The translations under genes were made by a program, and so were the position numbers. 42,146 bases of DNA from Acidobacteriota bacterium (lineage in GTDB: Bacteria; Acidobacteriota; Vicinamibacteria; Vicinamibacterales; UBA8438). Below, in pieces: positions 1 through 31,489 of this stretch (position 1 is the first letter of the stretch; every line of letters starts with the position of its first letter). The notes beneath the pieces are model-generated. The model searched no databases. It saw nothing but the letters and a program-made list of their open reading frames with translations, and was not told the DNA's origin. Location: the NCBI GenBank assembly GCA_009861545.1, contig VXME01000006.1, positions 38,264 to 80,409 of the forward strand, in the 5' to 3' direction.

Positions 1-638
1 CCGGAGGCGGCGCGAACTGGCAGGGCGCGGCGGTGGACGTGGAGACGGGGCAGCTGTTCGTCTCGTCGTCGAGCACGCTGATCGTGGTGGAGGTGGTGCC
101 CTACGATCCGCCGGCCACGGTCGGGTACTTCACCGATCCCTGGGGTGTCGGGCTGTCCGGACCGCAGGGACTGCCGCTGTTCAAGCCGCCCTACAAGCGC
201 GTTACCGCGATAGACCTCAACAGCGGCGAGCAGGCCTGGATGCAACCCCACGGGGACGGCCCGCGCTACCACCCGGCGTTGCGCGACCTGGACCTGCCGC
301 CCCTCGGCGGCGGGGGCGGTCTCAGCTCCGGCCCGCTCGTGACACCGACTCTGCTGATCATGAACCACGGCGGGCGCGGCTTCGCGTCGGCGGCCGATGC
401 TGCGCTCGTCGAGGCCACGGGCGATCCGACCGCGGACGCCGCCCTGCTGATGGCGGCCAGCACGCGCACCATCAGCGCCTACGACAAGCAGACCGGCGAG
501 CACCTCGGATCGGTACCCCTGCCAGCGACGCCGGGCGGCAACCCGATGACGTACCTCCACGAGGGGAAGCAGTACATCGTGGTCGCGGTCGGGCGCGGCG
601 GTGCCGACGCGGAGTTGATTGCGCTGGCGCTGCCGTGA
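1..638 (+). CDS. PQQ-dependent quinoprotein dehydrogenase, C-terminal part (5' end outside window)
   Basis: The frame is open from base 3 and ends in TGA at 636-638, so only about the last 212 residues are present. The protein would be a periplasmic quinoprotein oxidising an alcohol or sugar with PQQ. The visible part holds the final beta-propeller blades with tryptophan-docking-type repeats (AIDLNSGEQAW, AYDKQTGEHLG) and the family C-terminus ([18 protein letters not shown]). Over 201 aligned residues I count 13 differences from the C-terminus of the next gene (about 93% identity), so the two are a recent tandem duplication or have undergone gene conversion. No CxxCH heme motif is present in this part. 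The substrate cannot be told from the sequence. Confidence 0.9.
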   Translation, partial: GGGANWQGAAVDVETGQLFVSSSSTLIVVEVVPYDPPATVGYFTDPWGVGLSGPQGLPLFKPPYKRVTAIDLNSGEQAWMQPHGDGPRYHPALRDLDLPPLGGGGGLSSGPLVTPTLLIMNHGGRGFASAADAALVEATGDPTADAALLMAASTRTISAYDKQTGEHLGSVPLPATPGGNPMTYLHEGKQYIVVAVGRGGADAELIALALP

Positions 639-761
639 GCGGGCCGGGGAGCGGTCGCCGACACCTTGCCGGGGCGCCGTTCCCGATTCCCGCCGCGCGA
701 TGATCGACGCCTGTTCTGATACTTGCGGAAAGCCGGCGAACGGTCGGGAGGGGATATTCCG

Positions 762-2780
762 ATGACCCAGGGACTGCATCGTCGTCTGGTTCCACTCGCG
801 GCGGCGGCCGTTCTGGCGAGTGGCGGTTCCGCCGGGGCGCAGCCCTCGCTGCCCGACGGCGAGTGGCACGCCATCGGCCGGGACGCGGCCAACACCAAGT
901 ACTCGCCGCTCGACCAGATCGACGCGGACAACTTCACGGACCTGGCGATCGCGTGGCGCTGGACGTCGCTCTCCACCGCTGTGGCCGAGGCCAACGAGCG
1001 CATCCGTCCCAGTCAGTTCAAGTCGGTGCCATTGATGGCGGGCGGGCTGGTCTACGTCAGCACCGCGCTCGGGCAGGTGGCGGCGCTCGACGCCGGCAGC
1101 GGCGAGCCGGTCTGGACCTATGACCCGCAGATCTACGCGTATCTCGACCGGCCGCCCAACATGGGCTGGCACCACCGCGGGGTCTCGTATTGGAAGGACT
1201 CGCAGAGCGACGACGCGCGCATCTTCATCGCCAGCCACGACAAGCGGCTGGTTGCGCTGAACGCGCGCACCGGCCGGCGCTATCCCGACTTCGGCACTGG
1301 CGGCTACGTCGACCTCACGGCCGGCTTCGAGCGCGAGATCGACGCCTCGCGGATGACCTGGTCGTCCCCGGTCGCCATCGCCGGCGACACGGTGATCGTC
1401 GGCAGCATCGTGCAGGACGGGCGGATTACGCTGCGCGAGGCATCTCCGGGCCACGTGCGGGCCTACGCCGCGCGCACCGGCGAGATGAGGTGGATCTTCC
1501 GGACCATCCCGCGGGGCGACGACTTCGGCGCCGACACGTGGGGCAACGAGTCGTGGCGCTACAGCGGGCATTCCAACGTCTGGTCCTACATGGCGGTCGA
1601 CGAGGAGGCGGGCTACGTTTATCTGCCGACCGGCACGCCGTCGAACGACTGGTACGGCGGCATGCGGCCGGGCGACAACCTGTTCGCCGAGAGTATCGTC
1701 GCGGTCGACGTCGAGACGGGCGAGCGGGTCTGGCACTTCCAGGCCATCCACCACGGGCTCTGGGACTGGGACTTCCCGACCGGGCCGAACCTGCTGGACA
1801 TCACCGTCGACGGCCGCCCGGTCAAGGCCATCGCGCAGGTGAGCAAGCAGGGCTTCACCTACGTCTTCGATCGGATCACCGGCGAGCCGGTGTGGCCGAT
1901 CGAGGAGCGGCCGGTGCCGCAAGGCAACGTGCCCGGCGAGTGGTACTCGCCCACGCAGCCGTTTCCGACGAAGCCGCCGCCGTTCGACCGGCAGGGCTTC
2001 GCGATCGAGGACGTGATCGACTTCACGCCGGAGCTGCGCGCCGAGGCGCTCCGGATCATCAACAGCCGGGCGCGGTTCGGGCCGCTCTTCTCGCCGCCGG
2101 TGGTGCGCGGGGCCGAGGTGCCGTTCATCCAGGTGCCGGGGGCCGGAGGCGGCGCGAACTGGCAGGGCGCGGCGGTGGACGTGGAGACGGGGCAGCTATT
2201 CGTCTCGTCGTCCAGCACGCTGATCGTCGTGGAGGTGGTGCCGTACGACCCGCCGGCCACGGTGGGGTACTTCACCGATCCTTGGGGCGTCGGCCTGTCG
2301 GGCCCGCGAGGGCTGCCGCTGTTCAAGCCGCCCTACAAGCGGGTGACCGCGATGGATCTGAACACCGGCGAGCAGAGCTGGATGGCGCCGCATGGGGACG
2401 GCCCGCGCTACCACCCGGCGTTGCGCGACCTGGATCTGCCGCCCCTCGGTGGCGGGGGCGGGATCGGCTCCGGCCCGCTGGTGACGCCGACGTTGCTGAT
2501 CATGAACCACGGCGGGCGCGGCTACGAGTCGGCGGCAGACATGGCGCTGGGTGAGGCGACCGGTGACCCGACGGCGGACGCCGCGCTGCTGATGGCGGCC
2601 AGCACGCGCACTATCAGCGCCTACGACAAGGAGACCGGCGAGCACCTCGGTTCGGTGCCGCTGCCGGCGATCCCGGGTGGCAACCCGATGACGTACCTCC
2701 ACGAGGGGAAGCAGTACATCGTCGTCGCGGTCGGCCGCGGCGGAGCGGATGCGGAGCTCATCGCGCTGGCTCTGCCTTGA
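762..2780 (+). CDS. Secreted PQQ-dependent glucose-dehydrogenase-like quinoprotein
   Basis: This 672-residue protein has a signal peptide (hydrophobic run at residues 10-22, likely cut after AGA) followed by a full eight-bladed quinoprotein propeller. Repeated blade motifs include ALDAGSGEPVW, AYAARTGEMRW, AVDVETGERVW and VFDRITGEPVW. The HH-x2-WDWDFP segment at H330/H331 resembles the equivalent region of membrane glucose dehydrogenase. There are no transmembrane helices after the signal and no CxxCH, so electrons must pass to a separate acceptor. I chose the ATG at 762 because GGGAGGGG lies just upstream and the signal peptide starts there. A TTG at 723 would add 13 unlikely residues. It is the downstream copy of a tandem pair. 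Family assignment is firm; the substrate is unknown. Confidence 0.92.
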   Translation: MTQGLHRRLVPLAAAAVLASGGSAGAQPSLPDGEWHAIGRDAANTKYSPLDQIDADNFTDLAIAWRWTSLSTAVAEANERIRPSQFKSVPLMAGGLVYVSTALGQVAALDAGSGEPVWTYDPQIYAYLDRPPNMGWHHRGVSYWKDSQSDDARIFIASHDKRLVALNARTGRRYPDFGTGGYVDLTAGFEREIDASRMTWSSPVAIAGDTVIVGSIVQDGRITLREASPGHVRAYAARTGEMRWIFRTIPRGDDFGADTWGNESWRYSGHSNVWSYMAVDEEAGYVYLPTGTPSNDWYGGMRPGDNLFAESIVAVDVETGERVWHFQAIHHGLWDWDFPTGPNLLDITVDGRPVKAIAQVSKQGFTYVFDRITGEPVWPIEERPVPQGNVPGEWYSPTQPFPTKPPPFDRQGFAIEDVIDFTPELRAEALRIINSRARFGPLFSPPVVRGAEVPFIQVPGAGGGANWQGAAVDVETGQLFVSSSSTLIVVEVVPYDPPATVGYFTDPWGVGLSGPRGLPLFKPPYKRVTAMDLNTGEQSWMAPHGDGPRYHPALRDLDLPPLGGGGGIGSGPLVTPTLLIMNHGGRGYESAADMALGEATGDPTADAALLMAASTRTISAYDKETGEHLGSVPLPAIPGGNPMTYLHEGKQYIVVAVGRGGADAELIALALP

Positions 2781-2820
2781 TGCATCTCGATCCGCGACTC
2801 GCCCGCGAGGTGTTGGGAAG

Positions 2821-3693
2821 TCATGCGAGTAGCCGGTCCGACAAGCGTCCCGCCTCTTCGTAACACGCCCTCGCATTGGCTCGGTCTTCCTGGTAGAGAG
2901 ACCTGAAGCACCGTGCGCAGTTGGCATGCTGGGATCTGGGCTTGGTCAGCCCATCAATCTCACGCTCGGCGGCGTCGCGTTCCGTCGGATTCCCCGTACG
3001 GTTGAGCTCGAGATACGGCCACATCGCCCTGATCAGGTTGCACCGTTCGAGCCTCAGCTCGTCGCGCAGGTTGAGGCCGAAGAGATCGATGATGACTTGG
3101 CCGCGCCTGCGTTCATGCCCTTGTGCGTTACAGGGCACTGCAACGAAGCCGCGGAAGCAGACCAGTTCCTCGGGTGGCACGTCGTCCGTGCCGACTGGAT
3201 TGACCAGGAAGGGTCGTTCTGACTGATTGAGTTGGCGGACGTTTTCGCCCTCCGTCCCACGCGGCCCACTGACTGGGAAACAGGTCTTCTTGTTGTCCTG
3301 GTTGCACGTCTTGCACGAGACGAGATAGTTGAGGCAGTCGTGAGCAAGCCACGGATAGCCGTCCTCCATGTCTTCGCCCGTCTCGAATTCATACTGAAGT
3401 CCGGAAATCGCCGTCGGCCAACGCGTGACTTCGCGCTTTGGTCGGAAGTGCTCAAGATCGTACTCGCGCCGTCCGCCCCACGTTCGGCCGGCTGCGCTTC
3501 CGCCTGGGCGCTGCTGCGGGCGAGGCATAGGTCGTTCGCAGTACCCGCACTTGAAGTGCTGAATGCTGACGAAGACATCCTTGATGCGGCTCCACGCAGG
3601 TTCTTCGCCATTCTCAGCTTGGGCAAGCCAGTTGGGATCGTGTTCCCGTATCCGGCGTCGTAGCTCTGTCGGACCAATCCGATAACCGATCAT
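2821..3693 (-). CDS. ptuB: PtuB-like HNH endonuclease of a Septu-type defence module
   Basis: This 290-residue protein looks like the HNH nuclease partner of Septu systems. Visible motifs are a zinc-type CxxC at C49/C52 (FKCGYCERPM), the HNH core D79-L-E-H82 followed by FRPK, and C127-K-T-C130-N with a following NKK. A further CxxC (NCARC) lies near the C-terminus. It starts 24 bases after the ATPase gene on the same strand, which is the ptuA-ptuB order expected for Septu. In that family PtuB is thought to cut nucleic acid when released or activated by the PtuA complex during phage infection. Base composition is lower in G+C than the flanking genes (sampled lines 58-60%, against 80% in a sampled line of the quinoprotein next door), which suggests horizontal acquisition. 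A lone HNH protein of other function is the alternative. Confidence 0.8.
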   Translation of the reverse strand: MIGYRIGPTELRRRIREHDPNWLAQAENGEEPAWSRIKDVFVSIQHFKCGYCERPMPRPQQRPGGSAAGRTWGGRREYDLEHFRPKREVTRWPTAISGLQYEFETGEDMEDGYPWLAHDCLNYLVSCKTCNQDNKKTCFPVSGPRGTEGENVRQLNQSERPFLVNPVGTDDVPPEELVCFRGFVAVPCNAQGHERRRGQVIIDLFGLNLRDELRLERCNLIRAMWPYLELNRTGNPTERDAAEREIDGLTKPRSQHANCARCFRSLYQEDRANARACYEEAGRLSDRLLA

Positions 3694-3717
3694 GGCCGCT
3701 GGCTCCGCTCGCCGCGT

Positions 3718-4956
3718 CTACTCGCCGTCGACTTGTGCCGCTGAGCCCAAGGACGTCATTTCCATGAACCGGACGGCTGCGCCCGGCTTTCCGCGCGACA
3801 CGTCGCCCGACACTTTGCGGAGCTCCTCGTAGAAGTCCGGGGCCCGTGTCGACACGAGACCGAAATGAGAGCTGGTGAGGATCTGGTCGGCTGTCAATCC
3901 GTGGACTTCCCGATCAGGCGTTGCCAGAAAGGATGCGGTCTCGCCCTCCGCCAAGAGCAGGAACAGATTGGCCGACTCTACAGTTCCCGCCACGATGGGG
4001 CTGTGCGTCGTGCACAGGAACTGGAGTTGGGGAAAGGCTCGGGAAACGGTTGGTAGTACTTCGAGCTGCCACTGCGGATGCAGGTGTAGATCGACCTCGT
4101 CAATCATCACGATCCCGCGGTGGTCCACGAGAGCCGTTCCGTTCGGGCAACACTGACACATGTGGTAGAGGAGATCTCCAATCCACCCGATGTAGGCGCG
4201 GAATCCGTCTGACAGCGCGGAAAACGAAACCTCGAGGTCACGGTGGCTGAAGGTGTAGTCTCCGTTCAGCATCTTACCGTGAAAGTCGGTGCCGTCGGGC
4301 AGCAGCTCGTTCAGCAGCACTTCGACTTCTTGGTACCGCTGGAGGTTGGTCGCCTGGAGGGTCGGCAACCATCCCGCGAGTGGCATTAGCGTGGCCTGTT
4401 CCTCGAATAGGCTGGCCACCCTTTCGTAACGAACGTGCCGCAAGCGGCGGCGGAGGCTCGAATCCACCTTCGCGGAACTCTCAACGGTGCGGGAGACTCC
4501 GTAACCGACGAAGAAGAAGGCCGCCGAATCCTCGCTGTACATCGGATCCCAAACACGAGTTGCCAAAGCGGGATCGAACACGCATCTCTCCGTGGTACGC
4601 ACACGCGAGATTCGTGCGATCAGCATTGGTTTGTCTGGTGGGGGGCCGCTGTCTCCTTCGCGATCCTGGTCGCTGAGTGCAACGTGTGCCTGGACTGCGG
4701 CGTCCCTGGGAGACTTGTCCACTTCCCGTCGCACAAGCGAATACGGTCGGTAGCCGGTCGATGCCAGGACGGGACTCATGAGTGCGAGCGCGGCCGCCTT
4801 GAGCGCCGCTGACTTGCCCATCCCGTTGTTGCCCAGGAGCAGGTTGATGTTGGGGTACTTCAGCTTCACGGACGCGACCGCCCCCGGGTAGCGGAAGGAG
4901 ACGTCCGTGCGCCTGAAGGCCCGGAATCGCTCGATCTGCAGTGACTTCAGGTACAT
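3718..4956 (-). CDS. ptuA: PtuA-like AAA/ABC-type ATPase of a Septu-type defence module
   Basis: This 412-residue ATPase has an SMC/ABC-like nucleotide-binding fold. It starts with the typical YLKSLQIERFRAF opening. The Walker A is GNNGMGKS at 42-49, a signature-like ALSDGFR lies at 247-253, the Walker B is GIVMIDEVDLH at 281-291, and a TTHSP switch sits at 316-320. The insertion between Walker A and the signature is the family's variable sensor region. It is the first gene of a two-gene minus-strand unit with the HNH nuclease. In known Septu systems PtuA forms an ATP-binding scaffold that holds PtuB. OLD-family or RecF-like ATPases share the motifs, but the following HNH gene favours PtuA. 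A possible -10 box lies at 5014-5019. Confidence 0.8.
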   Translation of the reverse strand: MYLKSLQIERFRAFRRTDVSFRYPGAVASVKLKYPNINLLLGNNGMGKSAALKAAALALMSPVLASTGYRPYSLVRREVDKSPRDAAVQAHVALSDQDREGDSGPPPDKPMLIARISRVRTTERCVFDPALATRVWDPMYSEDSAAFFFVGYGVSRTVESSAKVDSSLRRRLRHVRYERVASLFEEQATLMPLAGWLPTLQATNLQRYQEVEVLLNELLPDGTDFHGKMLNGDYTFSHRDLEVSFSALSDGFRAYIGWIGDLLYHMCQCCPNGTALVDHRGIVMIDEVDLHLHPQWQLEVLPTVSRAFPQLQFLCTTHSPIVAGTVESANLFLLLAEGETASFLATPDREVHGLTADQILTSSHFGLVSTRAPDFYEELRKVSGDVSRGKPGAAVRFMEMTSLGSAAQVDGE

Positions 4957-5013
4957 CGCATCAGCCCCACCCGCTCAGGACTTCGTCCACGCCCAAGCGG
5001 ACGTCCACGGGAC

Positions 5014-5019
5014 ATTGTA
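5014..5019 (-). promoter_or_regulatory. Possible -10 box for the ptuAB unit
   Basis: On the minus strand this reads TACAAT, about 60 bases before the ptuA start. I see no convincing -35 at 16-18 bases. The surrounding gap, 4957-5110, holds no gene. Confidence 0.25.
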
Positions 5020-5110
5020 GTAGCCGCCATTCAACGCTGACTCGTGCCCGACCCGAGTGCTATTGAACTCGAGCACGACGTCCTGGCTGGTTCAGGGCGG
5101 GCCGCAGGAC

Positions 5111-8026
5111 TCACCGTGAGTCCGGCTTCACGAGCTCCGTCCCCAGGGTCCGGCCCTTGTCGACGGCCGGGACGCCCTTCTCCATCCACACCGGGGCGGG
5201 CGCGTCCTGCAGGTAGTAGTCGAAGAACTGCTGCATGCGGACCGCCCAGTCCTTGCGGTTGGCGTCGCGGCGCAGGCCATGGCCCTCGCCGTTGTAGTTG
5301 AGCAGCCACGCCGGTTTCTGCAGCCGGCGCAGGGCGACGAACAGCTCGATACCCTGGTACCACGGCACCGCCCCGTCCTCGTCGTTGTGCATCATCAGCA
5401 CCGGGGTGCGGATCTTGTCGGCGAAGAACAGCGGCGAGTTGTGCAGGTACTCGGCGGTGGCTTCCCAGAGCGAGCCGCCGATGCGACTCTGCGTCCGTTC
5501 GTACTGGAACATCCGGCTCATGCCGGTCTGCCAGCGGATGCCGCCGTAGGCGCTCGTCATGTTGCTGACCGGGGCGCCCGCCTCGGCCGCGGCGAAGAGG
5601 TCGGTCTTGGTGATCATGTACGCGATCTGGTATCCGCCCCAGGAATGGCCCTGGACGCCGATCCGATCCCGGTCGACGAAGCCTTCGTCGAGGAGGTCGA
5701 GCACGCCGGGGACGACCGCGTCGAGGGCGCTCTCGCCCGGGTAACCGATCTCGTAGGGAATGTCGGGGATGAACATCACGTAGCCGCGACTGACGTAGAA
5801 GGGAACCGACACTGATGAGCTGCCCGGCCGGGGCGTTCGCCACGTATGGAGGCCGTCCGACATCCGCTCGTAGAAGTACACGAGCAGGGGGTACTTCTCC
5901 GCGGGATCGAAGCCATCGGGCTTGAACAGCATGCCCTGCAGCTCGACGCCGTCGTTGGATGTCCACTCGACGAGCTCGGCCGAACCCCACCGGTAGTCGG
6001 CCTGCTGTGGATTGGCGTCCGACACGCGCTGCATGTCGGTGATCCCACGGTCAGTCACCCACAGGTCCGGGAACTCCCGGAAGTCCTCGCGGGTGAGCAG
6101 CCAGCGGTCCGCGTCCTTCGCCTTGCCGCGCAGCCGGAAGCTCTTGTCCGCCATGACCACCTCGGCCGGTGAGGCCTCGCGGTCCGTGCGGCCCTGGTAG
6201 AGTCCGCCCTGCTTGCTCTGGTCGTGGAACGCCTGCCAGAGCGCTTCTCCCTCCGGGATGTGGTCCAGCTCGGGCTCGGTCCGCGCGTAGCGGAAGCGAG
6301 TCTGCGACTCCCTGCCCGCGCCCGCCGTGAGGTTGATGGTCCGGCCCGACTCGGGCTCGAAGCGCCAGACGTCGAAGCGGTCGTAGAACAGGAACGCGCC
6401 GTCGTCCGCGGTCCAGCCGGCCGAGCCGTAGGGGGGCGGATCGTGCGGGTGGTCGTCCAGCTCGTTCCAGACCGGGTGCGGAACGTCGGCGCTCGCGGTC
6501 AGCGGCTCACCGCGCTCCAGTCGCACCACCTTCCACTGCCGTTCTGCGCCGTTCCACCACGCCGCGTACTTCCCGGCCGGCGAGATGGCGGCGCGGGCGA
6601 AGCGCCCGACCTTGTTCGCAACGGGACGACGCGTTCCCCTGGCCAGATCGATGGCGTAGAGGTCGTTGTAGCGCCCGTCCCAGGACAGGAGCTGCCGGTA
6701 CGGCATGTCGGTGACGCCGAGCGCGTGCCCGGCGTCCGACTCCGCGGCGAACCGGACCGTCGGGACGTCGGCCGTGCCCAGTTGCACGACAGCGCCGCCG
6801 TCCCGGTGGAACGCCGCAGCGTACGTGCGCTTCCGTTCGTCATCGGCCTGCACGAGCTGCATCGGCTGCAGGTAGGGGTCTTTCCAGTTCCAGATGTCGA
6901 GGGTGACCTCGTCCTCCTCCAGCGTCTCGTCCTCGGCTTCCGCCGCCGGCCGAGGCGCCGTCCCGAAGTGGAGAAGGGCGCCGCCCTCCGAGAAGCGGAC
7001 CTCACCGTGCTCGCTGACCCACCAGCCGTCGGGAACCCCGTCCGTGCCGGAAGCGGCGAGGGGTTCTGCCCGCCAGTCCGGCGCCCCGGCCCGGTACAGC
7101 GTGAACTCGGGCTGGTCCGAGGTTGAATCGTCCCGGTCCGTCAGGAAGGCGACCTGCGCGCCGTCCTTCGACAACGCCAGTTGCTCATAGCGTCCGTCGC
7201 CCTCGAGCAGCGCGCGCTGCGTGACGTCGTCCAACGCCACCACGTGGGCCCCGTTTCCGGACCCGTCCTTCGTCGAGGTGGTGAACGCCAGGACGGCGGC
7301 TTCCTCGGCGAATTCGTAGTCGGCGACGAGGTCGTAGCGTGTCTCGTCACCGGTAGCCAGGTGCAGAAGGACCAGCGTGGAGCCTTCGTCCTTCTCGTCG
7401 TCGACATCTCCTTCCGCGGCCGTGCCGCTCTCGCTCGCTTCGCCTTGCCGAGCCCGTTCCCCGGTGGCGTTCTCCGCCTCCGATTCCCGGGAGCCGTCCG
7501 CGCCGTCTTCCTCCACCGGCATGTACGCGATCCAGCTTCCCTCTCGCGCGACCTCGTAGCTCTCCACCGGTCCGAGGTCGCGGATCCCGCTCGGCCCGGC
7601 GTCTCCGTCGACGATTACGGCGCCGATATCCGCCACCGCGAGGGCGTCCTTCGGGAGCTCCTCGCCCTCCTTTCCCTCGCGCTCGAGGGCGTCGACTTCC
7701 GATTCCAGCGCCGGGACCGCGTAGACGAGGTGGCGGGAGTCCGACGTGAAGGTCGGCCTTTTGCCCCGGACCGTCAGCGCGCGACCGCCTCCGGCGGCCG
7801 CTTTCAGGGTGAGCGCCGGGTCCCCCTCCATGGGCGTGAGGACGAAGGCAAGCCACTCTCCGTCAGGCGACAGGGTCGGGTCGTCGACGGTGTTCCAGTG
7901 CAGCACGTCGTCGTGGTCGAGGAATTCCCGCTGCGCGACAACGGGAACGGCGGCGCCGACGAGCAGGACGAAGCCGGTTGCGAGGGCCACCGGGGAGACT
8001 GTGGCGCGTGGGCACGAGTATCTCAT
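5111..8026 (-). CDS. Secreted S9 family (prolyl oligopeptidase-type) serine peptidase
   Basis: This 971-residue exported peptidase has a signal peptide (hydrophobic residues about 10-28, ending VVAQ), an N-terminal WD40-like propeller (SPDGEWLAF opening) and a C-terminal alpha/beta-hydrolase domain. The triad is visible: nucleophile S795 in GHSWGG, D884 in HNDEDGAV and H916 in GEGHG. It probably trims oligopeptides in the periplasm. An acidic low-complexity stretch rich in Glu, Asp and Gly lies between the first propeller blades and is unlikely to be structured. The frame stays open far upstream, but that part is antisense to the next gene. The ATG at 8026 has GGAG 10 bases before it and begins the signal peptide. 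It is divergent from the membrane-protein gene at 8180. Confidence 0.9.
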   Translation of the reverse strand: MRYSCPRATVSPVALATGFVLLVGAAVPVVAQREFLDHDDVLHWNTVDDPTLSPDGEWLAFVLTPMEGDPALTLKAAAGGGRALTVRGKRPTFTSDSRHLVYAVPALESEVDALEREGKEGEELPKDALAVADIGAVIVDGDAGPSGIRDLGPVESYEVAREGSWIAYMPVEEDGADGSRESEAENATGERARQGEASESGTAAEGDVDDEKDEGSTLVLLHLATGDETRYDLVADYEFAEEAAVLAFTTSTKDGSGNGAHVVALDDVTQRALLEGDGRYEQLALSKDGAQVAFLTDRDDSTSDQPEFTLYRAGAPDWRAEPLAASGTDGVPDGWWVSEHGEVRFSEGGALLHFGTAPRPAAEAEDETLEEDEVTLDIWNWKDPYLQPMQLVQADDERKRTYAAAFHRDGGAVVQLGTADVPTVRFAAESDAGHALGVTDMPYRQLLSWDGRYNDLYAIDLARGTRRPVANKVGRFARAAISPAGKYAAWWNGAERQWKVVRLERGEPLTASADVPHPVWNELDDHPHDPPPYGSAGWTADDGAFLFYDRFDVWRFEPESGRTINLTAGAGRESQTRFRYARTEPELDHIPEGEALWQAFHDQSKQGGLYQGRTDREASPAEVVMADKSFRLRGKAKDADRWLLTREDFREFPDLWVTDRGITDMQRVSDANPQQADYRWGSAELVEWTSNDGVELQGMLFKPDGFDPAEKYPLLVYFYERMSDGLHTWRTPRPGSSSVSVPFYVSRGYVMFIPDIPYEIGYPGESALDAVVPGVLDLLDEGFVDRDRIGVQGHSWGGYQIAYMITKTDLFAAAEAGAPVSNMTSAYGGIRWQTGMSRMFQYERTQSRIGGSLWEATAEYLHNSPLFFADKIRTPVLMMHNDEDGAVPWYQGIELFVALRRLQKPAWLLNYNGEGHGLRRDANRKDWAVRMQQFFDYYLQDAPAPVWMEKGVPAVDKGRTLGTELVKPDSR

Positions 8027-8179
8027 CTTCTCATCTCCGGGTCGGGCTCCATCGGCGAGGAGCCGCCGCCGTTTCCATGCCTGTGGATAGTAACGGGTAC
8101 AGGAACGGGGAAGATCCGGCGCCGGTCGGCCCGGTTCCCAGTCCGAGCAATCCTGCGAGCCGTTAAGATCCCCGAGTCC

Positions 8180-8821
8180 ATGCGCAACGTCGGCCTGCTG
8201 CTCGTCCTCACCGCGCTCGCCACGGTCCTGGCCGTGCTGGGCCGCGTCTCCGCCGATGCCGATCACGAGACGCTGGCGGATTCGCTCGCGGCGATTGCCG
8301 ACAGCCGGGGGCTCTACGGCCTGGGCGGCGGCGGGCGGTTGGTGTCGGGGCTGACGCTGATCGCCGCCGGGTGGTTTCTGTTCGGCGCCGCTGGTGATGG
8401 CGGGCGAGGGCGCGCGGCGGTCGTCCCGCTCCTGTTCGCGGTATCGGGGGCGCTCACCGCGTGTTCGGGGGCGCTTGCGGTCAGCCTGGCCGCGGCGCCG
8501 CGGGAATGGATGGATGTCGCGGGCCTCGAGCGGGTTGCGCTGAGCCACCAGGAGGCGACGGTGTGGCTGCGGCGGTTCACCGGGGCGGCCGGCTTTGCCG
8601 TTGCCGGCTTGGCGTTGATCGTCGTGGCAGGGCGGCAACGGCGCGCCGGCGGGACGCTCGAGCGGATCGCGCCGGCATCGGCCTTGCTCGGCCTGGCGAT
8701 CCAGTTCGTCTGGCTCGATGCCGCGACGACCGTACACATGGTCACCGGAACCCTTTTCGTGGCGTGGCTCGTCGTTGGCGGCGGCATGCTGCTGAAAGGC
8801 CGGGCCTGGATTCCGGATTGA
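8180..8821 (+). CDS. Hypothetical six-segment integral membrane protein
   Basis: This 213-residue protein is not recognised. It has about six hydrophobic segments (roughly 4-21, 52-72, 80-107, 132-150 and two between 160 and 207), small hydrophilic loops and a short C-terminus (LLKGRAWIPD). The ATG at 8180 is the only reasonable start because upstream sequence in frame is antisense to the S9 peptidase. There is no Shine-Dalgarno sequence, and a TAAGAT element at 8164-8169 would place transcription start almost at the ATG, so a leaderless message is possible. No function should be assigned. Confidence 0.7.
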   Translation: MRNVGLLLVLTALATVLAVLGRVSADADHETLADSLAAIADSRGLYGLGGGGRLVSGLTLIAAGWFLFGAAGDGGRGRAAVVPLLFAVSGALTACSGALAVSLAAAPREWMDVAGLERVALSHQEATVWLRRFTGAAGFAVAGLALIVVAGRQRRAGGTLERIAPASALLGLAIQFVWLDAATTVHMVTGTLFVAWLVVGGGMLLKGRAWIPD

Positions 8822-8849
8822 CGACGCGCTTCTCGAATCCCTGTAGAAT
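8818..8849 (+). promoter_or_regulatory. Possible promoter of the aldolase-like gene
   Basis: TTGACG (8818-8823, overlapping the upstream stop codon) and TAGAAT (8844-8849) lie 20 bases apart. That is wider than usual, so the -10 match is better supported than the -35. Confidence 0.3.
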
Positions 8850-8863
8850 CAACCGGATCGGGT

Positions 8864-8896
8864 GATGGAGGGGGCCGGCGGCTGGCCGCCTCCATC
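8864..8896 (+). other. Strong inverted repeat in the leader of the aldolase-like gene
   Basis: GATGGAGG at 8864-8871 pairs perfectly with CCTCCATC at 8889-8896, and the enclosed bases can pair further (GGCC with GGCC around a short loop). No T-run follows, so it is not a classical intrinsic terminator. It lies about 130 bases before the start codon, in what would be the 5' leader. It matches no riboswitch I recognise. Confidence 0.45.
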
Positions 8897-9027
8897 GAGT
8901 CGGTGTTCCCGGAAGCGACCGATTCATCGCCGATGCAGTAGCTGGAAGTCCGGGCCGCAAGAATCCGATGCCGGAGCAGGCGACGCCGAGTTGAACGATG
9001 CCACGACGCGACAAAGGAGACCGTGCG

Positions 9028-10023
9028 ATGAGTGAGCGAGCGCCGCAGGACACCCCTGCGGGCCACTGGATTTCGTACCGCCCCGAGATCAAGGTGATGG
9101 ACTGCACCATTCGGGACGGCGGCCTGATGAACGACCACCAGTTCCCGGACGAGACCGTCAAGGCGGTCTACCAGGCCTGCGTCGAGAGCGGCATCGACTA
9201 CATGGAGATCGGCTACATCAACTCGCGGAAGCAGTTCCCGCCCGGCCAGTTCGGTCCCTGGAAGCACAGCGTGGAGAGCGACATCCGCCGCATCGTCGGC
9301 GACAACGACACGCCGCTGAAGCTGTCGGCGATGGCCGACGCCGAGAAGAGCGACTACGCCGAGGACATTCTGCCCAAGTCGGAGAGCGTGCTCGACCTGA
9401 TCCGGGTGGCCACCTACATCCACCAGATTCCGCTGGCCCTGGACATGATCAAGGACGCCCACGACAAGGGCTACGAGACCAGCCTCAACCTGATGGCCCT
9501 GTCGACGGTCCCCGAGCGGGAGCTGAACGAGGCGCTGGCGCTGGTCGCCCAGTCCGAGGCGGACGTCATCTGCATAGTGGACAGCTTCGGCGCGCTCTAC
9601 TGCGAGCAGATCGACGACTACATGACCACCTTCCGGAGTTACGCCGCGCCGGCCGGCAAGGAAGTCGGCATGCACGCCCACAACAACCGGCAGCTCGCCT
9701 TCGCCAACACCGTGCAGGCGACGATCAAGGGCGCCAACCGGCTGGACGCCAGCATGGCGGGTCTCGGGCGCGGGGCGGGCAACTGCGCGATGGAGCTGCT
9801 GCTCAGCTTTCTGCACAACCCCAAGTTCCGGCTGCGGCCGGTCCTGCACTGCATCCAGCACCACATCGAGCCGATGCGCGAGGCCCTGAAGTGGGGCTTC
9901 GACTACCCCTACATGATGACCGGGGTGCTCAACCAGCATCCGCGGGCGGGGATGGCGTTCAACGAGTCCGACGACCGCGGCGACATCATCAAGTTCTACG
10001 ACTCTCTGGAAGACCCGGACTGA
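9028..10023 (+). CDS. DRE-TIM metallolyase-like aldolase (HMG-CoA lyase / 4-hydroxy-2-oxovalerate aldolase type)
   Basis: This 331-residue cytosolic enzyme carries the hallmark T27-I-R-D-G-G motif and the metal-ligand pair H216-x-H218 (GMHAHNN) of the pyruvate/HMG-CoA-lyase TIM-barrel superfamily. Members cleave or form C-C bonds next to a 2-oxo acid or acyl-CoA with a divalent metal. The length fits a single barrel without a DmpG-type C-terminal extension. The ATG at 9028 is preceded by AAAGGAGACC. An in-frame ATG at 8998 has no ribosome-binding site. No dehydrogenase partner such as DmpF is adjacent, so the 4-hydroxy-2-oxovalerate pathway is not supported by context and the substrate remains open. 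Confidence 0.85.
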
Positions 10024-10047
10024 CGGCTCGGGCGGCCGCGGAAGATC

Positions 10048-10106
10048 ATGCGAAGAGCAGTACTGGGAGCGGTGACGTTCGCCGTGGCGGGGACGGTGGT
10101 GCCGTC

Positions 10107-10110
<4 letters not shown>
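10048..10110 (+). CDS. Possible 20-residue leader peptide overlapping the glyQ start
   Basis: An ATG at 10048 preceded by GGAAG opens a 20-codon frame. Its TGA (10108-10110) overlaps the glyQ ATG as ATGA. GlyQ has no clear Shine-Dalgarno sequence of its own, so the short frame may deliver ribosomes to glyQ by termination-reinitiation. The peptide is hydrophobic (Val, Ala, Gly) with two Arg at the N-terminus and has no run of Gly codons. It may be chance. Confidence 0.25.
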
Positions 10111-11069
<959 letters not shown>

Positions 11070-11071
11070 GC

Positions 11072-13495
11072 ATGGAATACCGGGAGCTGCTCCTGGAGAT
11101 CGGTTGCGAGGAGATGCCCGCAAGCTGGATTCCGGGCATCGAGGCGCAACTCGCCGACCGGCTGGCCGCGCAACTGGACGCGGCGCGTATCGAGCGCCGC
11201 ACGCCGGTGCGGGCGTTCGTGGCTCCCCGGCGGCTCGTGGCCACGGTTGCGGAGCTGGCCGATCGGCAGTCGGATCTGGAGGAGACGGTGACCGGGCCGC
11301 CCGTCCGGGCCGCCTTCGACGCGAACGGCGAGCCGACGCGGGCCGCCCTTGGCTTCGCCCGCAAGCAGGGGGTGGACGTCGCCGACCTGGCGCGTGTGCA
11401 GACGCCGAAGGGCGAATACCTCGCCTGTCACCGCCGTCAGGACGGGGAGGACACGCGGTCCCTGCTGGGGGGCGTTCTCGCCGCCACGCTGCGCGGTCTG
11501 GCCTTTCCCAAGGCGATGCGCTGGGACGCCACCCTGGGCGACGGGCGCGGCGAGTTCCTCTTCGGCCGTCCCGTCCGGTGGCTCGTCTTCCTGTACGCCT
11601 CTCGGGTGGTGCCGTTCGAGATCGGCCGGACTCCGGGCGCGGAGGCTGCCGGGGTGGCGCCGGTCCGGGCCGGCAGCGTCACCTACGGGCACCGGTTCTT
11701 CGGTGGCGACGGCACGCCGGGAGCGCCGATCGAGGTGACGTCGTTCGCCGACTACCGCGACCGTCTCGAGAAAGCATGCGTGCTGATCGATCGGGAAGAC
11801 CGCAGCGTTCGCGTCACTCGCGAGTTGGAGGACCGCGCCAATGAGGTCGGCGGCCGGCTGGCGACGCTCGACCGGCAGTCGGCGCTCCACGCCGAGGTGC
11901 CGGATCTGGTCGAGCATCCCGCGGTGGTGACCGGGGCCTTTCCCGAGGAGTTCCTCGCGTTGCCCGACGAGGTGCTCTCGACCACCATGGTGCACCACCA
12001 GCACTACTTCCCGGTCGTCGACGAGCGGGACCGACTCTCGGCGCACTTTCTCGCGGTGACCAACACGCCGGGCGACGATCCGGCCGCGAGTGCCGCCGAG
12101 CGCCGACACGCGCAGGCCCGCAATGCGCGTATCGCCCGCAACTCGGAGCGGGTGCTCGTGGCCCGCCTGCGCGACGCGCGCTTCTTCTGGGATGCGGATC
12201 GGACGCAGCGGCTCGAGGACCGGCTGGACCGGCTCGACACCCTCCTGTTTCACAAGCGGCTCGGCAGCTACCGCGACAAGTCGAAGCGGGTGGAGGAGCT
12301 GGCGGAACGGATCGCCGGCGGCGTACTGGGCCAATCCGTCGAGGTCGCCCGAGCAGCGCGGCGCGCGGCAACGCTCTGCAAGGCCGATCTGGCCACCGAC
12401 ATGGTGGGCGAGTTCCCGGAGCTGCAGGGCGCCATGGGCGGCGTCTACGCGCGCGAGCAGGGCGAGCCGGAGGCCGTCTGGAAGGCCATCTACCACCATT
12501 ACCTGCCGATTGGCGTCGCCGCCGACGATCCGCCGTCGCGCGACGACCTGGGCAAGGCGGCGGCTGCCTGGGCAGCGGTGGCGCTGGCCGACAAGGTGGA
12601 CACCGTGGTGGGTCTGTTCGGCGCCGGCGAGAAGCCGACCGGGTCGCGTGACCCCCTCGGGATTCGCCGCCAGGCGCAGGGGATGCTGCGGATCCTGATC
12701 GATCTTCCCGAGCTGACCGGGCTGGACGTTCGCGTTCCTGTCGGAGCGCTTCTCGGACCCGCCCGCAACATGCACACGAAGGATGACTGGTCCAGGGTGT
12801 ATTGGGCGCTGGATCGCAAGTGGAAGGACGGCCGGTCCGGGAAGGGTGTCGAAGAGGACACCGGACTCGGTCGAGAACGCGTGAAGGAACTGCTTGAGGA
12901 GCATCGATCCGAGGTGCGCCAGTTCACGGCGCAAGCAGGGTGGCCAGGCTATGCCCTGAAGTCCAGGCCCGTAGATTTTCTCCTCGAACGACTTCGCTAC
13001 ATTCTCGAGGAGCGCGGATTCGACCGTCGCAACGTGCGCGCGGTGACGCACCAGCCGCTCGACGAGATTCGGCCCCTGGATGCCCGCCGCAAGCTGGAGG
13101 TGCTTCCGGAATTCACCGACACGGCCGACTTCCGGACCCTGGCGACGCTGTTCAAGCGCGTCAAGAACATCGCGCGGGAGCGCAAGGACGGCAGCTCATC
13201 GGACGAGCAGTTCGAACCGGCGCTCACCGAACCGGCCGAGCGGGCGCTGCTCGATGAACTGAAGTCACGTCGCTCCATCATCGACGCTGCCGTCAGCACG
13301 GGCGCCGGGTTCCGCGAGGCTTTCGCCGAGGCCGCGAGGATAGGCCCGGCCGTCGACCGCTTCTTCAACGAAGTGTTCGTCATGGTCGAGGACCCGACAC
13401 TGCAAAATGTCCGTCTGGGCCTCATGCAGCGGGTCGAGCAGGTCATCCTGCAACTCGCGGACGTCTCCGAGATCGTTCCGGAAACGTCGTCCTGA
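11072..13495 (+). CDS. glyS: Glycine--tRNA ligase beta subunit, with an internal insertion
   Basis: GlyS is the tRNA-binding beta subunit that partners GlyQ. The N-terminus (LLLEIGCEEMPASW), the central SVTYGHRF and KADLATDMVGEFPELQGAMG segments, the DPLGIRRQAQG segment and the C-terminal anticodon-binding domain (FNEVFVMVEDP) are all typical. The protein is 807 residues against about 690 in most bacteria. Part of the excess is a segment at about residues 558-630 (bases about 12745-12965), between GVLRI-like and DFLLERLRYIL-like blocks that are nearly contiguous in E. coli. Its DNA looks less G+C-rich than the rest. The frame is continuous, so the protein is expected to be functional. Confidence 0.96.
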   Translation: MEYRELLLEIGCEEMPASWIPGIEAQLADRLAAQLDAARIERRTPVRAFVAPRRLVATVAELADRQSDLEETVTGPPVRAAFDANGEPTRAALGFARKQGVDVADLARVQTPKGEYLACHRRQDGEDTRSLLGGVLAATLRGLAFPKAMRWDATLGDGRGEFLFGRPVRWLVFLYASRVVPFEIGRTPGAEAAGVAPVRAGSVTYGHRFFGGDGTPGAPIEVTSFADYRDRLEKACVLIDREDRSVRVTRELEDRANEVGGRLATLDRQSALHAEVPDLVEHPAVVTGAFPEEFLALPDEVLSTTMVHHQHYFPVVDERDRLSAHFLAVTNTPGDDPAASAAERRHAQARNARIARNSERVLVARLRDARFFWDADRTQRLEDRLDRLDTLLFHKRLGSYRDKSKRVEELAERIAGGVLGQSVEVARAARRAATLCKADLATDMVGEFPELQGAMGGVYAREQGEPEAVWKAIYHHYLPIGVAADDPPSRDDLGKAAAAWAAVALADKVDTVVGLFGAGEKPTGSRDPLGIRRQAQGMLRILIDLPELTGLDVRVPVGALLGPARNMHTKDDWSRVYWALDRKWKDGRSGKGVEEDTGLGRERVKELLEEHRSEVRQFTAQAGWPGYALKSRPVDFLLERLRYILEERGFDRRNVRAVTHQPLDEIRPLDARRKLEVLPEFTDTADFRTLATLFKRVKNIARERKDGSSSDEQFEPALTEPAERALLDELKSRRSIIDAAVSTGAGFREAFAEAARIGPAVDRFFNEVFVMVEDPTLQNVRLGLMQRVEQVILQLADVSEIVPETSS

Positions 13496-13512
13496 CGATC
13501 CGGCCTCGTATA

Positions 13513-13524
13513 TCCGCATGCGGA
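13513..13524. other. Perfect 12-base palindrome downstream of glyS
   Basis: TCCGCATGCGGA lies 18 bases after the glyS stop and about 100 before the next start. It lacks a T-run. It could be an operator or a weak hairpin. Confidence 0.25.
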
Positions 13525-13625
13525 GCGGATTCGGTCCGGGGGAACCGCAGGCGTCGGCTGGACCTCCGGGCAGGGAACCACACCGGTCCGCGCACCGTCC
13601 AAGCCGGTAGACGGAGGGCCGAGGG

Positions 13626-14597
13626 ATGGCACAGCAGACTGGCTGGGACTGGAAGAAGATTCTCCTCGTAGTCATGGGCGCCGCGGGCGTGCTGGTCTTC
13701 GCGCTTGTCGGGTTGACCGCAGTCGGCTTCGTCTGGGCGACGTCTACCGTCGAGCAGTTGGGCGACCCGGTCCTCGAGCCGGTTGACTCCAGCGTCGCGA
13801 GCCGGCACGCGGGCGAGCAGGCCGCCGGCGAGGGAAGTCCCGGGCAGCCGTTGCGGGTGGAGATCGAGCTGGAGGAAGGCGAGTTCGAAGTGCGTCCAGG
13901 CCCGCCGGGCGCCGGGGTCCAGGTGGACGGTTCGTATGCGAAGGGGTACTACGAGCTGATCGAGGATCACACGCCAGCGGGCGAGCCGGGCGGCCCGGCT
14001 ACGACGATTCGTCTGCGTCCCGCCCACCCGTTCCTCGTGCGGCTGTTTGCCGGCGCGATCGGCGGGCACGACAACGTGCACAACGCGCTCACGGTCACCA
14101 TACCGCCGGACGTTCCGATCGCGCTGACCTTGAGGCTGCGCGCCGGAGAGTCGCGTACCGATCTGGGCGGCCTGACCCTCACCGAGCTGGATGCCGAGCT
14201 CGTCATGGGGGAGCACCGGCTCGACTTCAGCGAACCGCTCGAGGGCGTTCCGAGCCGGGTGCACGTGGAAGGCGGCATGGGCGAGATCCGGGTCGAGCGT
14301 CTCGGCAACGCGAGAGCACGGGAAATCGAGATGTCTGGGCGGATGGGCAGCATGATTGCCGATCTCGGCGGCGACTGGCCCCGCGGCCAGGCCGCCGACC
14401 TGACGATCGAGAACACCATGGGCGAGTTCAGGCTGAATGTTCCGAACACGGTTCGGATCGCGCCCGACTCGAACGCGGCCAACGTCCTCGGCGCGGTCAG
14501 CCGCCTTCCGACGGAGGCCGAAGCGAGCGCCGAGACGCTGCTGCTGCGATTGCACATGTCGAACTCGATGGGCGAGACGCGGGTCAGGCGCTATTGA
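13626..14597 (+). CDS. Hypothetical membrane-anchored beta-rich protein with repeated MGE motifs
   Basis: This 323-residue protein has a basic N-terminus, one transmembrane helix at about 12-38 and a long extracytoplasmic part. The C-terminal 150 residues show a recurring pattern in which Met-Gly, usually with Glu, opens a beta-strand-like stretch: positions about 194, 218, 240, 265 and 315 (VMGEHRLDF, GMGEIRVERL, RMGSMIADL, TMGEFRLNV, SMGETRVRRY). This resembles the right-handed beta-fold domains of DUF4097/LiaF-like envelope proteins, but I cannot assign a named family with certainty. The ATG follows GGAGGGCCGAGGG. It is 130 bases after glyS and convergent with the next gene, four bases away. 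Confidence 0.75.
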   Translation: MAQQTGWDWKKILLVVMGAAGVLVFALVGLTAVGFVWATSTVEQLGDPVLEPVDSSVASRHAGEQAAGEGSPGQPLRVEIELEEGEFEVRPGPPGAGVQVDGSYAKGYYELIEDHTPAGEPGGPATTIRLRPAHPFLVRLFAGAIGGHDNVHNALTVTIPPDVPIALTLRLRAGESRTDLGGLTLTELDAELVMGEHRLDFSEPLEGVPSRVHVEGGMGEIRVERLGNARAREIEMSGRMGSMIADLGGDWPRGQAADLTIENTMGEFRLNVPNTVRIAPDSNAANVLGAVSRLPTEAEASAETLLLRLHMSNSMGETRVRRY

Positions 14598-26243: not shown

Positions 26244-28208
26244 ATGTCTGCACGCAGGATGAAGGTCGCGGCGGTCGTCGTTCTCGGCGGGCTGCTGGCG
26301 GCCGGTGCGCCGCCGGTTGCGGCGCAGACCGACAACGGCGAGTGGCGGAGCTACGGCGGCGACATCGCGAACACGCGCTATTCGCCGCTGGATCAGATCG
26401 ACGCCGGGAACTTCGATGATCTGGAGGTCGCCTGGCGGCTCCGGACCGCCAACTTCGGGTCGGAGCCCGAGTTCAACTTCCAGGCGACGCCGCTGATGGT
26501 GGACGGCGTGATCTACACCACGGCGGGCCTGCGCCGGGCGGCGATCGCGGCGGACGCGGCGACCGGCGAGTTGCTCTGGATGCACCGCCTCGACGAGGGC
26601 GAGCGGGCCGCGGTGGCGCCGCGGCGCCGGTCCGGCCGCGGGCTGGCGTACCGCGACGACGGGGGCGACGGGCAGATCTTCTACGTGACGCCCGGCTACC
26701 GGCTCGTCGGCCTGCACGCGAAGACCGGCGAGCGCCTGGCCGACTTCGGCGAGAACGGGATCATCGACCTGATGCAGAACATGGATCAGGAGATCGACCC
26801 GCTGGCCGGCGAGATCGGCCTGCACGCGACGCCGCTCGTGGCCGGCGACACCATCGTGGTCGGGGCCGCCCACGTTCCCGGCAGCGCGCCGCGCTCGATG
26901 CGCAACACGAAGGGTTACATCCGGGGCTTCGACGCGAATACCGGCGTCCGCAAGTGGATCTTCCACACGATCCCGGGCGCCGACGAGTTCGGCAACGACA
27001 GTTGGCTGAACGACTCGTGGCGCTACACCGGCAACACCGGGGTGTGGGGGCAGATCAGCGCCGACCTCGAGCTGGGCATCGTCTATCTGCCGACCGAGAT
27101 GCCGACCAACGACTACTACGGCGGCCACCGCCACGGCGACAACCTGTTCTCGGACAGCATCGTCGCGGTGGACATCGACACCGGCGAACGGTTGTGGCAT
27201 CTGCAGGTGATTCAGCACGACGTCTGGGACTGGGACTTTCCCTGCGCGCCGGTGCTGGTCGACGTGGAGATCGACGGCGTCATGCGGAAACTCATCGCGC
27301 AGCCGAGCAAGCAGTCGTGGCTGTACGTCCTCGACCGCGTGACCGGCGAGCCGATCTGGCCGATCGAGGAGCGCGAGATGCCGCCGTCCGACGTGCCGGG
27401 CGAGCTGCTGTCGCCGACCCAGCCGTTCCCGACCCATCCGCCCCCCTACGACCGGCAGGGGGTTGGCATCGAGGACCTGATCGACTTCACGCCGGAGTTG
27501 CGCGCCGCGGCGGAGGAGCTCGTTTCGAACTTCCGCATCGGGCCGATCTTCACGCCCCCGGTGGTGGCCGAGACGGACGGGCCGTGGGGCACGCTGATGC
27601 TGCCGTCGGCCGGCGGCGGCGCCAACTGGCCGGGCGGCTCGGTCGATCCCGAGACCGGCATCTTCTACCAGTACTCCTTCACCCAGGTCACCTCGCTCGG
27701 CCTGGTGAACGACCCGGAGCGCTCGGACATGGACTTCATCCGGGGGAATCCTCCGGGGGTGCCCGCGCGTCTGCGCGCGTTGAACATTCGCGGGCTACCG
27801 CTCATCAAGCCGCCGTGGGGCCGCATCACCGCCATCGATCTGTCGACGGGCGACTTTCTCTGGCAGATTCCGCACGGCGAGACGCCCGACAACGTCCGTA
27901 ACCACCCCGCGTTGCAGGGCGTCGACATCCCGCGCACCGGCCGCATCGGCCGCGTCGGCACCCTGATCACCAAGACGCTGGTGATTGCGGGCGAGCCGGG
28001 CACGTTCACCACGCCGTCGGGCGAGGTGGGAGCGATGCTGCGCGCCTACGACAAGGCGTCGGGCGAGGAGATGGGCGCGGTCTACATGCCGGCGTCGGTG
28101 TCGGGCTCGCCGATGACGTACCTGCACGAGGGGCGGCAGTACATCGTGACCGCCATCGGTGGAGCCGGATTCCCCGGGGAGTTGATCGCCTACCGCTTGC
28201 CGGAATAG
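26244..28208 (+). CDS. Secreted PQQ-dependent quinoprotein dehydrogenase
   Basis: This 654-residue quinoprotein has a signal peptide (MKVAAVVVLGGLLAAGA, cut near VAAQ) followed by the [21 protein letters not shown] opening of the family. Blade motifs include [35 protein letters not shown] and AIDLSTGDFLW. The QH-x2-WDWDFPC segment sits at H325. There is no CxxCH and no membrane domain. AGGAGG precedes the ATG at 26244. It is closely similar throughout to the gene at 29522 and more distant from the pair at the left end. An identical mature N-terminal motif in the two suggests a second, older duplication. Electrons probably go to a separate periplasmic cytochrome or quinone reductase. The substrate is unknown. 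Confidence 0.92.
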   Translation: MSARRMKVAAVVVLGGLLAAGAPPVAAQTDNGEWRSYGGDIANTRYSPLDQIDAGNFDDLEVAWRLRTANFGSEPEFNFQATPLMVDGVIYTTAGLRRAAIAADAATGELLWMHRLDEGERAAVAPRRRSGRGLAYRDDGGDGQIFYVTPGYRLVGLHAKTGERLADFGENGIIDLMQNMDQEIDPLAGEIGLHATPLVAGDTIVVGAAHVPGSAPRSMRNTKGYIRGFDANTGVRKWIFHTIPGADEFGNDSWLNDSWRYTGNTGVWGQISADLELGIVYLPTEMPTNDYYGGHRHGDNLFSDSIVAVDIDTGERLWHLQVIQHDVWDWDFPCAPVLVDVEIDGVMRKLIAQPSKQSWLYVLDRVTGEPIWPIEEREMPPSDVPGELLSPTQPFPTHPPPYDRQGVGIEDLIDFTPELRAAAEELVSNFRIGPIFTPPVVAETDGPWGTLMLPSAGGGANWPGGSVDPETGIFYQYSFTQVTSLGLVNDPERSDMDFIRGNPPGVPARLRALNIRGLPLIKPPWGRITAIDLSTGDFLWQIPHGETPDNVRNHPALQGVDIPRTGRIGRVGTLITKTLVIAGEPGTFTTPSGEVGAMLRAYDKASGEEMGAVYMPASVSGSPMTYLHEGRQYIVTAIGGAGFPGELIAYRLPE

Positions 28209-29445: not shown

Positions 29446-29467
29446 TCCCGGCCCTGAAATGGTCGCT

Positions 29468-29485
29468 CTGTGGCTCCGCTTTCCT
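29468..29485 (+). repeat. 18-base direct repeat, copy 2
   Basis: Exact copy of 29381-29398. It runs into a TGCTATCCT extended -10-like element. Confidence 0.8.
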
Positions 29486-29493
29486 GCTATCCT
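29485..29493 (+). promoter_or_regulatory. Possible extended -10 promoter element of the quinoprotein gene
   Basis: TGCTATCCT has the TGn extension. It would give a leader of about 22 bases containing AAGGAG before the GTG start. Confidence 0.3.
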
Positions 29494-29521
29494 TCGCGAC
29501 GCGACGAAGAAGGAGCCGAAC

Positions 29522-31489
29522 GTGCCAATACAGCGCATGCACATCGCGTCGATCATCGTGCTCGCCGGATTGCTGGCGGCCGGCACGGCACCGGCGGCGG
29601 CGCAGACCGACAACGGCGAGTGGCGCAGCTACGGCGGCGACATCGCCAACACGCGCTACTCGGCGCTCGACCGGATCACCGCCGACAACTTCGACGACCT
29701 GGAGGTCGCCTGGCGGCTGAACACGGCCAACTTCGGGCCGGAGCCGGAGTTCAACTTCCAGGCGACGCCGCTGATGGTCGACGGCGTGCTGTACTCGACG
29801 GCCGGCCTGCGGCGGGCGGCAATCGCGGCGGACGCGGGCACCGGCGAGCTGCTCTGGATGCACCGCCTCGACGAGGGCGAGCGCGCCGAGGTGGCGCCGC
29901 GGCGGCGCTCGGGTCGCGGGCTGGCCTACCGCGACAACGGCGGCGACGGGGAGATCTTCTACGTCACCCCCGGGTACCGGCTGGTCGGACTCGACGCGAA
30001 GACGGGCGAGCGGCTGTCCCACTTCGGCGAGGACGGCATCGTCGACCTGATGCGGAACATGGATCAGGATATCGATCCGCTGTCGGGCGAGATCGGCCTG
30101 CACGCCACGCCGCTCGTGGCCGGCGACACCATCGTCGTGGGCGCGGCGCCCGTGCCCGGCGGCCGGCCCCGCTCGATGCGCAACACGAAGGGCTACATCC
30201 GCGGCTTCGACGCCGATACCGGCGAACGGAAGTGGATCTTCCACACGATTCCGGGGGCGGACGAGTTCGGCAACGACACGTGGCTGAACGAATCGTGGCG
30301 CTACACCGGCAACACCGGGGTGTGGGGGCAGATCAGCGTCGACCTGGAAGAAGGCATCGTCTACCTGCCCACCGAGATGCCGACCAACGACTACTACGGC
30401 GGTCACCGCCACGGCGACAACCTTTACTCGGACAGCCTCGTGGCGGTGGACATCGAGACGGGCGACCGGCTGTGGCACTTCCAGTTCATCCATCACGACG
30501 TGTGGGACTGGGACCTGCCCTGCGCGCCGATCCTGGCCGACGTCATGATCGACGGCGAGCTGCGCAAGATCGTGGCGCAGCCGAGCAAGCAGTCGTGGCT
30601 GTACGTCTTCGACCGGGTGACCGGCGAGCCGATCTGGCCGATCGAGGAGCGGGAGGTCGAGCCGTCGGATGTGCCGGGCGAGCTGCTGGCGCCGACCCAG
30701 CCCTACGTGACGAAGCCCCCGGCGTACGATCGGCAGGGGGTCGATGTTGACGACCTGATCGACCTGACGCCCGAGCTGCGGCGGCGCGCCGAGGAGATCG
30801 CGTCGCGGCACCTGATGGGGCCGATCTTCACCCCGCCCACCGTCTCGGAGGCGGACGGCGTCTACGGCACCCTGATGCTGCCGTCGCAGGCCGGCGGGAC
30901 GAACTGGCCCGGCGGGTCGCTGGATCCGGAAACCGGCATCATCTACCTGTACACGTTCACGCAGATGGTGTCGCTCGGTCTGGTCAACGATCCCGAGCTC
31001 TCGGACATGAACTTCATCCGCGGGCGCGGGGAGGGCATCTCGGCTCGCGAGGCGTCGCTGACCATCGAAGGGATCCCGATCGTCAAGCCGCCGTGGGGCC
31101 GCATCACCGCGATCGACCTCAAGGCGGGGGAGATTCTCTGGCAGGTGCCGCACGGCGAGACGCCGGACAACATCCGCAACCACCGGCTGCTCGAGGGTGT
31201 CGACGTGCCGCGGACCGGCCGCATCGGGCGGGTGGGAACGCTGAACACGCCGACCATGGTCATCGCGGGCGAGGCGGGCACTTTCACCACGCCGTCGGGC
31301 GAGGTAGGCGCGATGCTCCGCGCCTACGACAAGATGTCGGGCGAGGAGCTCGGCGCCGTCTACATGCCGGCCGGGGTGACCGGGTCGCCGATGACCTACC
31401 TGCACGAAGGGCGGCAGTACATCGTCACGGCGATCGGCGGCGCCGGGTTCCCGGGCGAGCTGATCGCCTACCGGCTGCCGGAGGAGTAG
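29522..31489 (+). CDS. Secreted PQQ-dependent quinoprotein dehydrogenase
   Basis: This 655-residue protein is the closest relative of the product at 26244. It has the same signal-peptide pattern ([23 protein letters not shown]) and the same [19 protein letters not shown] start. Blade motifs include [35 protein letters not shown] and [11 protein letters not shown], with H324-H325-x2-WDWDLPC in the active-site region. There is no CxxCH and no transmembrane domain. I chose GTG at 29522 because AAGGAG lies six bases before it and it aligns with the paralogue. An ATG at 29459 would add 21 residues without a signal character. The last 65 bases overlap the convergent VapC gene. Confidence 0.92.

Follow-up and report, generated by a model that had tools for sequence, protein, structure and literature searches.

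Organization of the locus

The window analysed here is a stretch of 42,146 nucleotides of acidobacterial DNA, spanning positions 38264-80409 of contig C6 in a genome of 6.35 Mb and 174 contigs. The closest relatives that bear a name are acidobacterial metagenome-assembled genomes, one of them classified under Vicinamibacterales. Two adjacent open reading frames on its minus strand, both intact, are the subject of this work. The ptuA gene (3718..4956, 412 aa) encodes an ABC/SMC-type ATPase. It is followed on the same strand, after a gap of 24 bases, by ptuB (2821..3693, 290 aa), which encodes an HNH-type nuclease subunit of a long PtuB subfamily. On one side, a PQQ-type quinoprotein gene (723-2780, plus strand) ends 40 bases from the PtuB stop. 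On the other, an S9-family peptidase gene on the minus strand has its C-terminal end at 5111, with the PtuA start about 154 bases beyond. The mapped gene ends bear out the initial annotation in the strand and spacing of the pair, in the 40-base gap to the quinoprotein gene and in the peptidase on the far side. Genes for PQQ-type quinoproteins are numerous in the window (33-638, 723-2780, 26244-28208, 29459-31489 and 36866-38041), and the first two form a tandem that is nearly identical over the gene ends.

About 57 bases before ptuA, a TACAAT sequence (5014-5019, minus strand) is a candidate -10 box of a ptuAB operon. It is kept in all four aligned upstream regions, one of them from another genus. 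No other defence genes were recognised in the part of the window's genes that was scanned.

The pair also stands out by base composition. The GC fraction of the 2136-base ptuAB stretch is 0.613, compared with 0.695 (sd 0.013) for segments of the same size away from it, and no other 2.1-kb stretch of the window is as low. GC3 is 0.753 for PtuA and 0.698 for PtuB, against 0.921 for the quinoprotein and 0.882 for the peptidase. The lower G+C content relative to the flanks, which the initial annotation had pointed out, is thus confirmed by the scan of the whole window.

The PtuA and PtuB subunits

The best PADLOC model for PtuA is PtuA PDLC00301 (E=1.3e-141, 470.5 bits, residues 1-407), and the only Pfam models above cut-off are AAA_21, AAA_15 and AAA_23. 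Its solved relatives by sequence are the Ec78, Ec83 and other PtuA chains. Foldseek matches the predicted model (pLDDT 76.5) to the PtuA proteins of Eco7/Ec78 (E=1.7e-21) and of E. coli Septu (E=2.2e-20), with approximately 20% identity to solved PtuA over the aligned stretches. The ATPase motifs are all intact: Walker A GNNGMGKS at residue 42 (4810..4833), the ABC signature-like LSDGF (4201..4215), Walker B VMIDEVDLHLHP at residue 283 (4075..4110) and the H-loop TTHSP at residue 316 (3997..4011), all encoded on the minus strand. K48 of Walker A, S249 and G251 of the signature, D286 and E287 of Walker B, and H318 of the H-loop are invariant in 31 PtuA proteins.

PtuB is best matched by the PADLOC model PtuB PDLC00318 (E=4.4e-75, 251 bits, residues 10-283). 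It has no Pfam match above cut-off, and no solved relatives were found by sequence. The predicted model is weak (mean pLDDT 64.6). In Foldseek, its nine best PDB matches all come from solved complexes of Septu or type I-A retrons and are the PtuB/HNH chains. Among them is Ec78 PtuB, which this low-confidence model matches with E=1.9e-5. The HNH histidine and asparagine and both cysteine pairs are intact. The first pair, CGYC at residue 49 (3538..3549, minus strand), is a probable metal site, with C49 in 38 and C52 in 31 of 39 PtuB proteins. The HNH core DLEHFRPK follows at residue 79 (3436..3459, minus strand; E81 in 36 and H82 in 38 of the 39), then N122 (3328..3330, minus strand; Asn in 38) and the second pair CKTC, within CKTCN at residue 127 (3304..3315, minus strand; C127 in 32, C130 in 29). 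Three of the ATPase motifs (GNNGMGKS, Walker B and TTHSP) and three of these nuclease motifs (CGYC, DLEHFRPK and CKTCN) had been read from the DNA earlier, and all six are found at the residues given here. We infer that H82 occupies the same position as the HNH-motif histidine H75 of the E. coli Septu system EcB88.

With about 290-300 residues, members of the long subfamily exceed most other PtuB proteins fetched, which have about 200-260. Whole long PtuB proteins are encoded on plasmids of Sphingobium, Rhizobium and Agrobacterium and in two acidobacterial genomes, G011 from the host's own family and G201 from a different one. The subfamily carries a C-terminal motif, HANCARC at residue 256 of the present protein (2908..2928, minus strand), and its first cysteine is found in all members with a C-terminus. 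The initial annotation had noted a C-terminal CxxC (NCARC) in PtuB. The motif is present, but it is not conserved as a CxxC, since the first cysteine alone is kept. The second is serine or alanine in the relatives from Rhizobium, Sphingobium and Agrobacterium, and serine in G201. Outside the host's bacterial family, the general part of the motif consists of the first cysteine and usually a histidine three positions before it. The CxxC is clade-specific. A second conserved zinc finger was considered for NCARC and rejected, because the second cysteine is replaced outside the host's family.

Assignment to Septu

The profiles, the gene order, the catalytic residues and the predicted fold agree, and we therefore assign the pair to Septu without a reverse transcriptase. 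It is very probably a two-gene, type I system, as PADLOC defines this class (PMC8565338), in which PtuA is paired with a PtuB of the long form, and it most likely works like the Septu systems that have been tested. The two genes probably share a transcript. The Septu arrangement proposed in the initial annotation is upheld by the two PADLOC matches (1.3e-141 and 4.4e-75), both well beyond chance, together with order, residues and fold. Of the 59 relatives fetched, most have a PtuB-like gene after PtuA. Between the intact pairs of this genome and G011, dN/dS is 0.23 for PtuA and 0.22 for PtuB, which indicates purifying selection on both genes.

PtuAB pairs also occur in retrons (type I-A, or Septu type II), and a reverse transcriptase and msr-msd could have been overlooked or could lie elsewhere in the genome. 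The matching NCBIfam models are indeed those of the Ec78 retron PtuA (1e-36) and PtuB (1.9e-5), both far below cut-off, and the genome encodes three reverse transcriptase domains. However, all three (RVT_1) are on contigs C30, C76 and C170 and none on the ptuAB contig, and no Rfam family was matched in positions 1-14000 of the window, although Rfam may miss some retron RNAs. Moreover, the canonical PADLOC models for PtuA and PtuB score 470.5 and 251 bits, compared with 138.7 and 23.9 bits for the retron I-A models. We give almost no credence to a retron-linked pair, in line with the initial annotation, which had seen no reverse transcriptase beside the genes and had regarded a retron link as unsupported.

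The same genome contains a second Septu pair of another subfamily, on contig C132 (L115:5556-7807), in which the PtuA (PDLC00295, 1.2e-108) overlaps a 360-aa PtuB-like frame.

Age of the pair at its site

The low GC content of the pair raises the question of its origin. Recent horizontal transfer of an island into this strain, between its peptidase and quinoprotein genes, would account for the lowest GC of the window and the low GC3. It would also fit the homologues on alphaproteobacterial plasmids, which are mostly conjugative, the patchy occurrence among genomes of the phylum (12 of 396), and a dS for PtuA of 0.45-0.56 compared with 0.20-0.28 for the neighbours. The comparison with relatives makes this scenario unlikely. 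In G001 and G003, from the same genus, PtuA is approximately 86% and 82% identical and lies between matching peptidase and quinoprotein genes. G011, from another genus of the same family, has the whole pair (69% identity for PtuA, 64% for PtuB) next to the same quinoprotein neighbour, without the peptidase. The low GC is common to these relatives as well, with 0.61-0.63 in the genus and 0.666 in G011, where the quinoprotein gene has 0.72. Given the shared site and low GC, the acquisition must be older than the genus, unless the relatives swap the segment by homologous recombination, which is conceivable.

Because the relatives share the position and the low GC, the ptuAB pair appears to be an old resident of a site with varying content. 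Of the composition island in the initial annotation, the GC contrast stands, but a recent insertion is not borne out. No clean empty site was found among the relatives examined. In G005 the peptidase is kept and the next genes differ, and in G002 another cassette is found there.

Carriage of the pair by phages was also considered and rejected, as no relatives of this PtuB were found in phage records or viral contigs. The PtuA relatives in viral contigs are distant ones only.

Breakage of ptuB and alternative content of the site

The two same-genus relatives with ptuA at the site both have a broken ptuB. The G003 gene has lost about 81 codons in frame, and with them CGYC, the EHF core and N122. 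In the intact ptuB of the window, the stretch deleted in G003 carries a 5-base repeat, TCGTC, at either end. Only 68 homologous residues are left of ptuB in G001, and behind this stump lie genes for an SMC-like ATPase and for a NucS-like nuclease that matches the PADLOC candidate PDC-S11 (2.3e-62). This cassette (L004:9561-14129) is duplicated internally, perhaps through an assembly error, and its junction has a possible faint remnant of the peptidase end (BLAST E=0.004). G002 lacks ptuAB at this place, and the SMC-like ATPase (824 aa) and NucS-like PDC-S11 nuclease (L108:100-3869) come directly after a partly deleted peptidase gene. The genomes compared are metagenome-assembled or of unstated origin, so that assembly error is possible, but at face value one site appears to carry alternative candidate defence content.

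The repeated loss of the nuclease while PtuA stays open fits a costly effector, although the PtuA-seeded search is biased and the events are few. Between G001 and G003, the pairwise dN/dS of PtuA is 0.21, a value that pools the time before and after PtuB loss. Since the sisters keep PtuA after loss of the PtuB core, and since a new cassette follows the PtuB stump in one of them, there is a slim chance that PtuA acts without active PtuB or has joined the new cassette as a regulator.

Further genes are damaged, too. A second copy of the long-PtuB subfamily in G001 (L114:8372-10232, contig C4) has its PtuA divided between two frames and a PtuB shortened to 209 aa. In a gammaproteobacterial metagenome-assembled genome (L007:9221-11129), PtuA is open and PtuB is truncated near a transposase-like gene. 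The S9 peptidase gene beside PtuA in G003 (L005:7144-7855) has a large internal deletion, and the G002 copy is deleted differently.

Possible function

To our knowledge, no member of this Septu subfamily has been tested. The gene arrangement is that of Septu, the active sites are intact, and the predicted folds resemble those of solved chains from Septu and type I-A retrons. By analogy, oligomers of PtuA would bind ATP and keep PtuB under control, and infection would activate PtuB. Its HNH site may then cut nucleic acid, with phage DNA, single-stranded DNA and tRNA as candidates, which would halt phage replication and harm the cell.

In the EcB88 system, defence is lost when the Walker motifs, the HNH histidine or the HNH asparagine are mutated, H75 is the HNH-motif histidine needed for it, and tRNA-Tyr is cut during T6 infection (PMC13096335). 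With the PtuAB of retron Eco7, tRNA-Tyr is depleted and toxicity requires expression of both proteins, whereas the Eco4 pair shows no tRNA target (PMC11555353). A review describes a 6:2 PtuA-PtuB complex in solved Septu, with degradation of the phage genome as its action, and degradation of single-stranded DNA by the Ec83 pair (PMC12948488). As the tested relatives differ in their targets, the substrate of the present pair cannot be deduced from them.

Long residence at one site, with no other recognised defence gene nearby, might instead be expected of a housekeeping ATPase-nuclease for DNA repair. We consider this reading very improbable. Among the 193 genomes of the class, only 5 have a match to the PtuB profile, ptuB is broken in sister genomes, and a different candidate defence cassette sits next to the peptidase in G002. 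The plasmid relatives also have CBASS and methylase genes as neighbours. In Rhizobium brockwellii, a plasmid pair matching PDLC00301 and PDLC00318 adjoins genes for a CBASS cyclase and a WYL protein, and on an Agrobacterium plasmid the pair is found near an N-6 DNA methylase.

Comparison with known systems

As a defence system, the pair is an ordinary addition to Septu, to which it contributes an acidobacterial chromosomal member. It also provides a small natural series at one site, which runs from the intact pair through an in-frame PtuB core deletion and a PtuB stump with another cassette to that cassette alone. The series suggests that, of the two halves of Septu, the nuclease is the costly one.

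The window pair resembles type I Septu (PDLC00301 and PDLC00318) in gene order, protein length, near end-to-end coverage by the models, catalytic residues and the absence of a reverse transcriptase. The same subfamily is also found whole on Rhizobium, Sphingobium and Agrobacterium plasmids. Compared with these plasmid members, the identity is 35-39%, more residues separate CGYC from the HNH core, and NCARC takes the place of C-x-R-[SA]. The folds of both subunits are predicted to be similar to those of E. coli Septu (8eea), despite only about 20% identity to the 8eea PtuA. Walker and HNH residues of the kinds essential in EcB88 are present as well, but the HNH histidine and asparagine are 40 residues apart in the window PtuB and 16 in EcB88 (H75 and N91). 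The closest solved folds are those of the type I-A retron PtuAB proteins (Ec78/Eco7 and Ec83/Eco4). Unlike these retrons, the window pair has no gene for a reverse transcriptase or msDNA, and its PtuA is shorter, with 412 residues compared with about 542-550.
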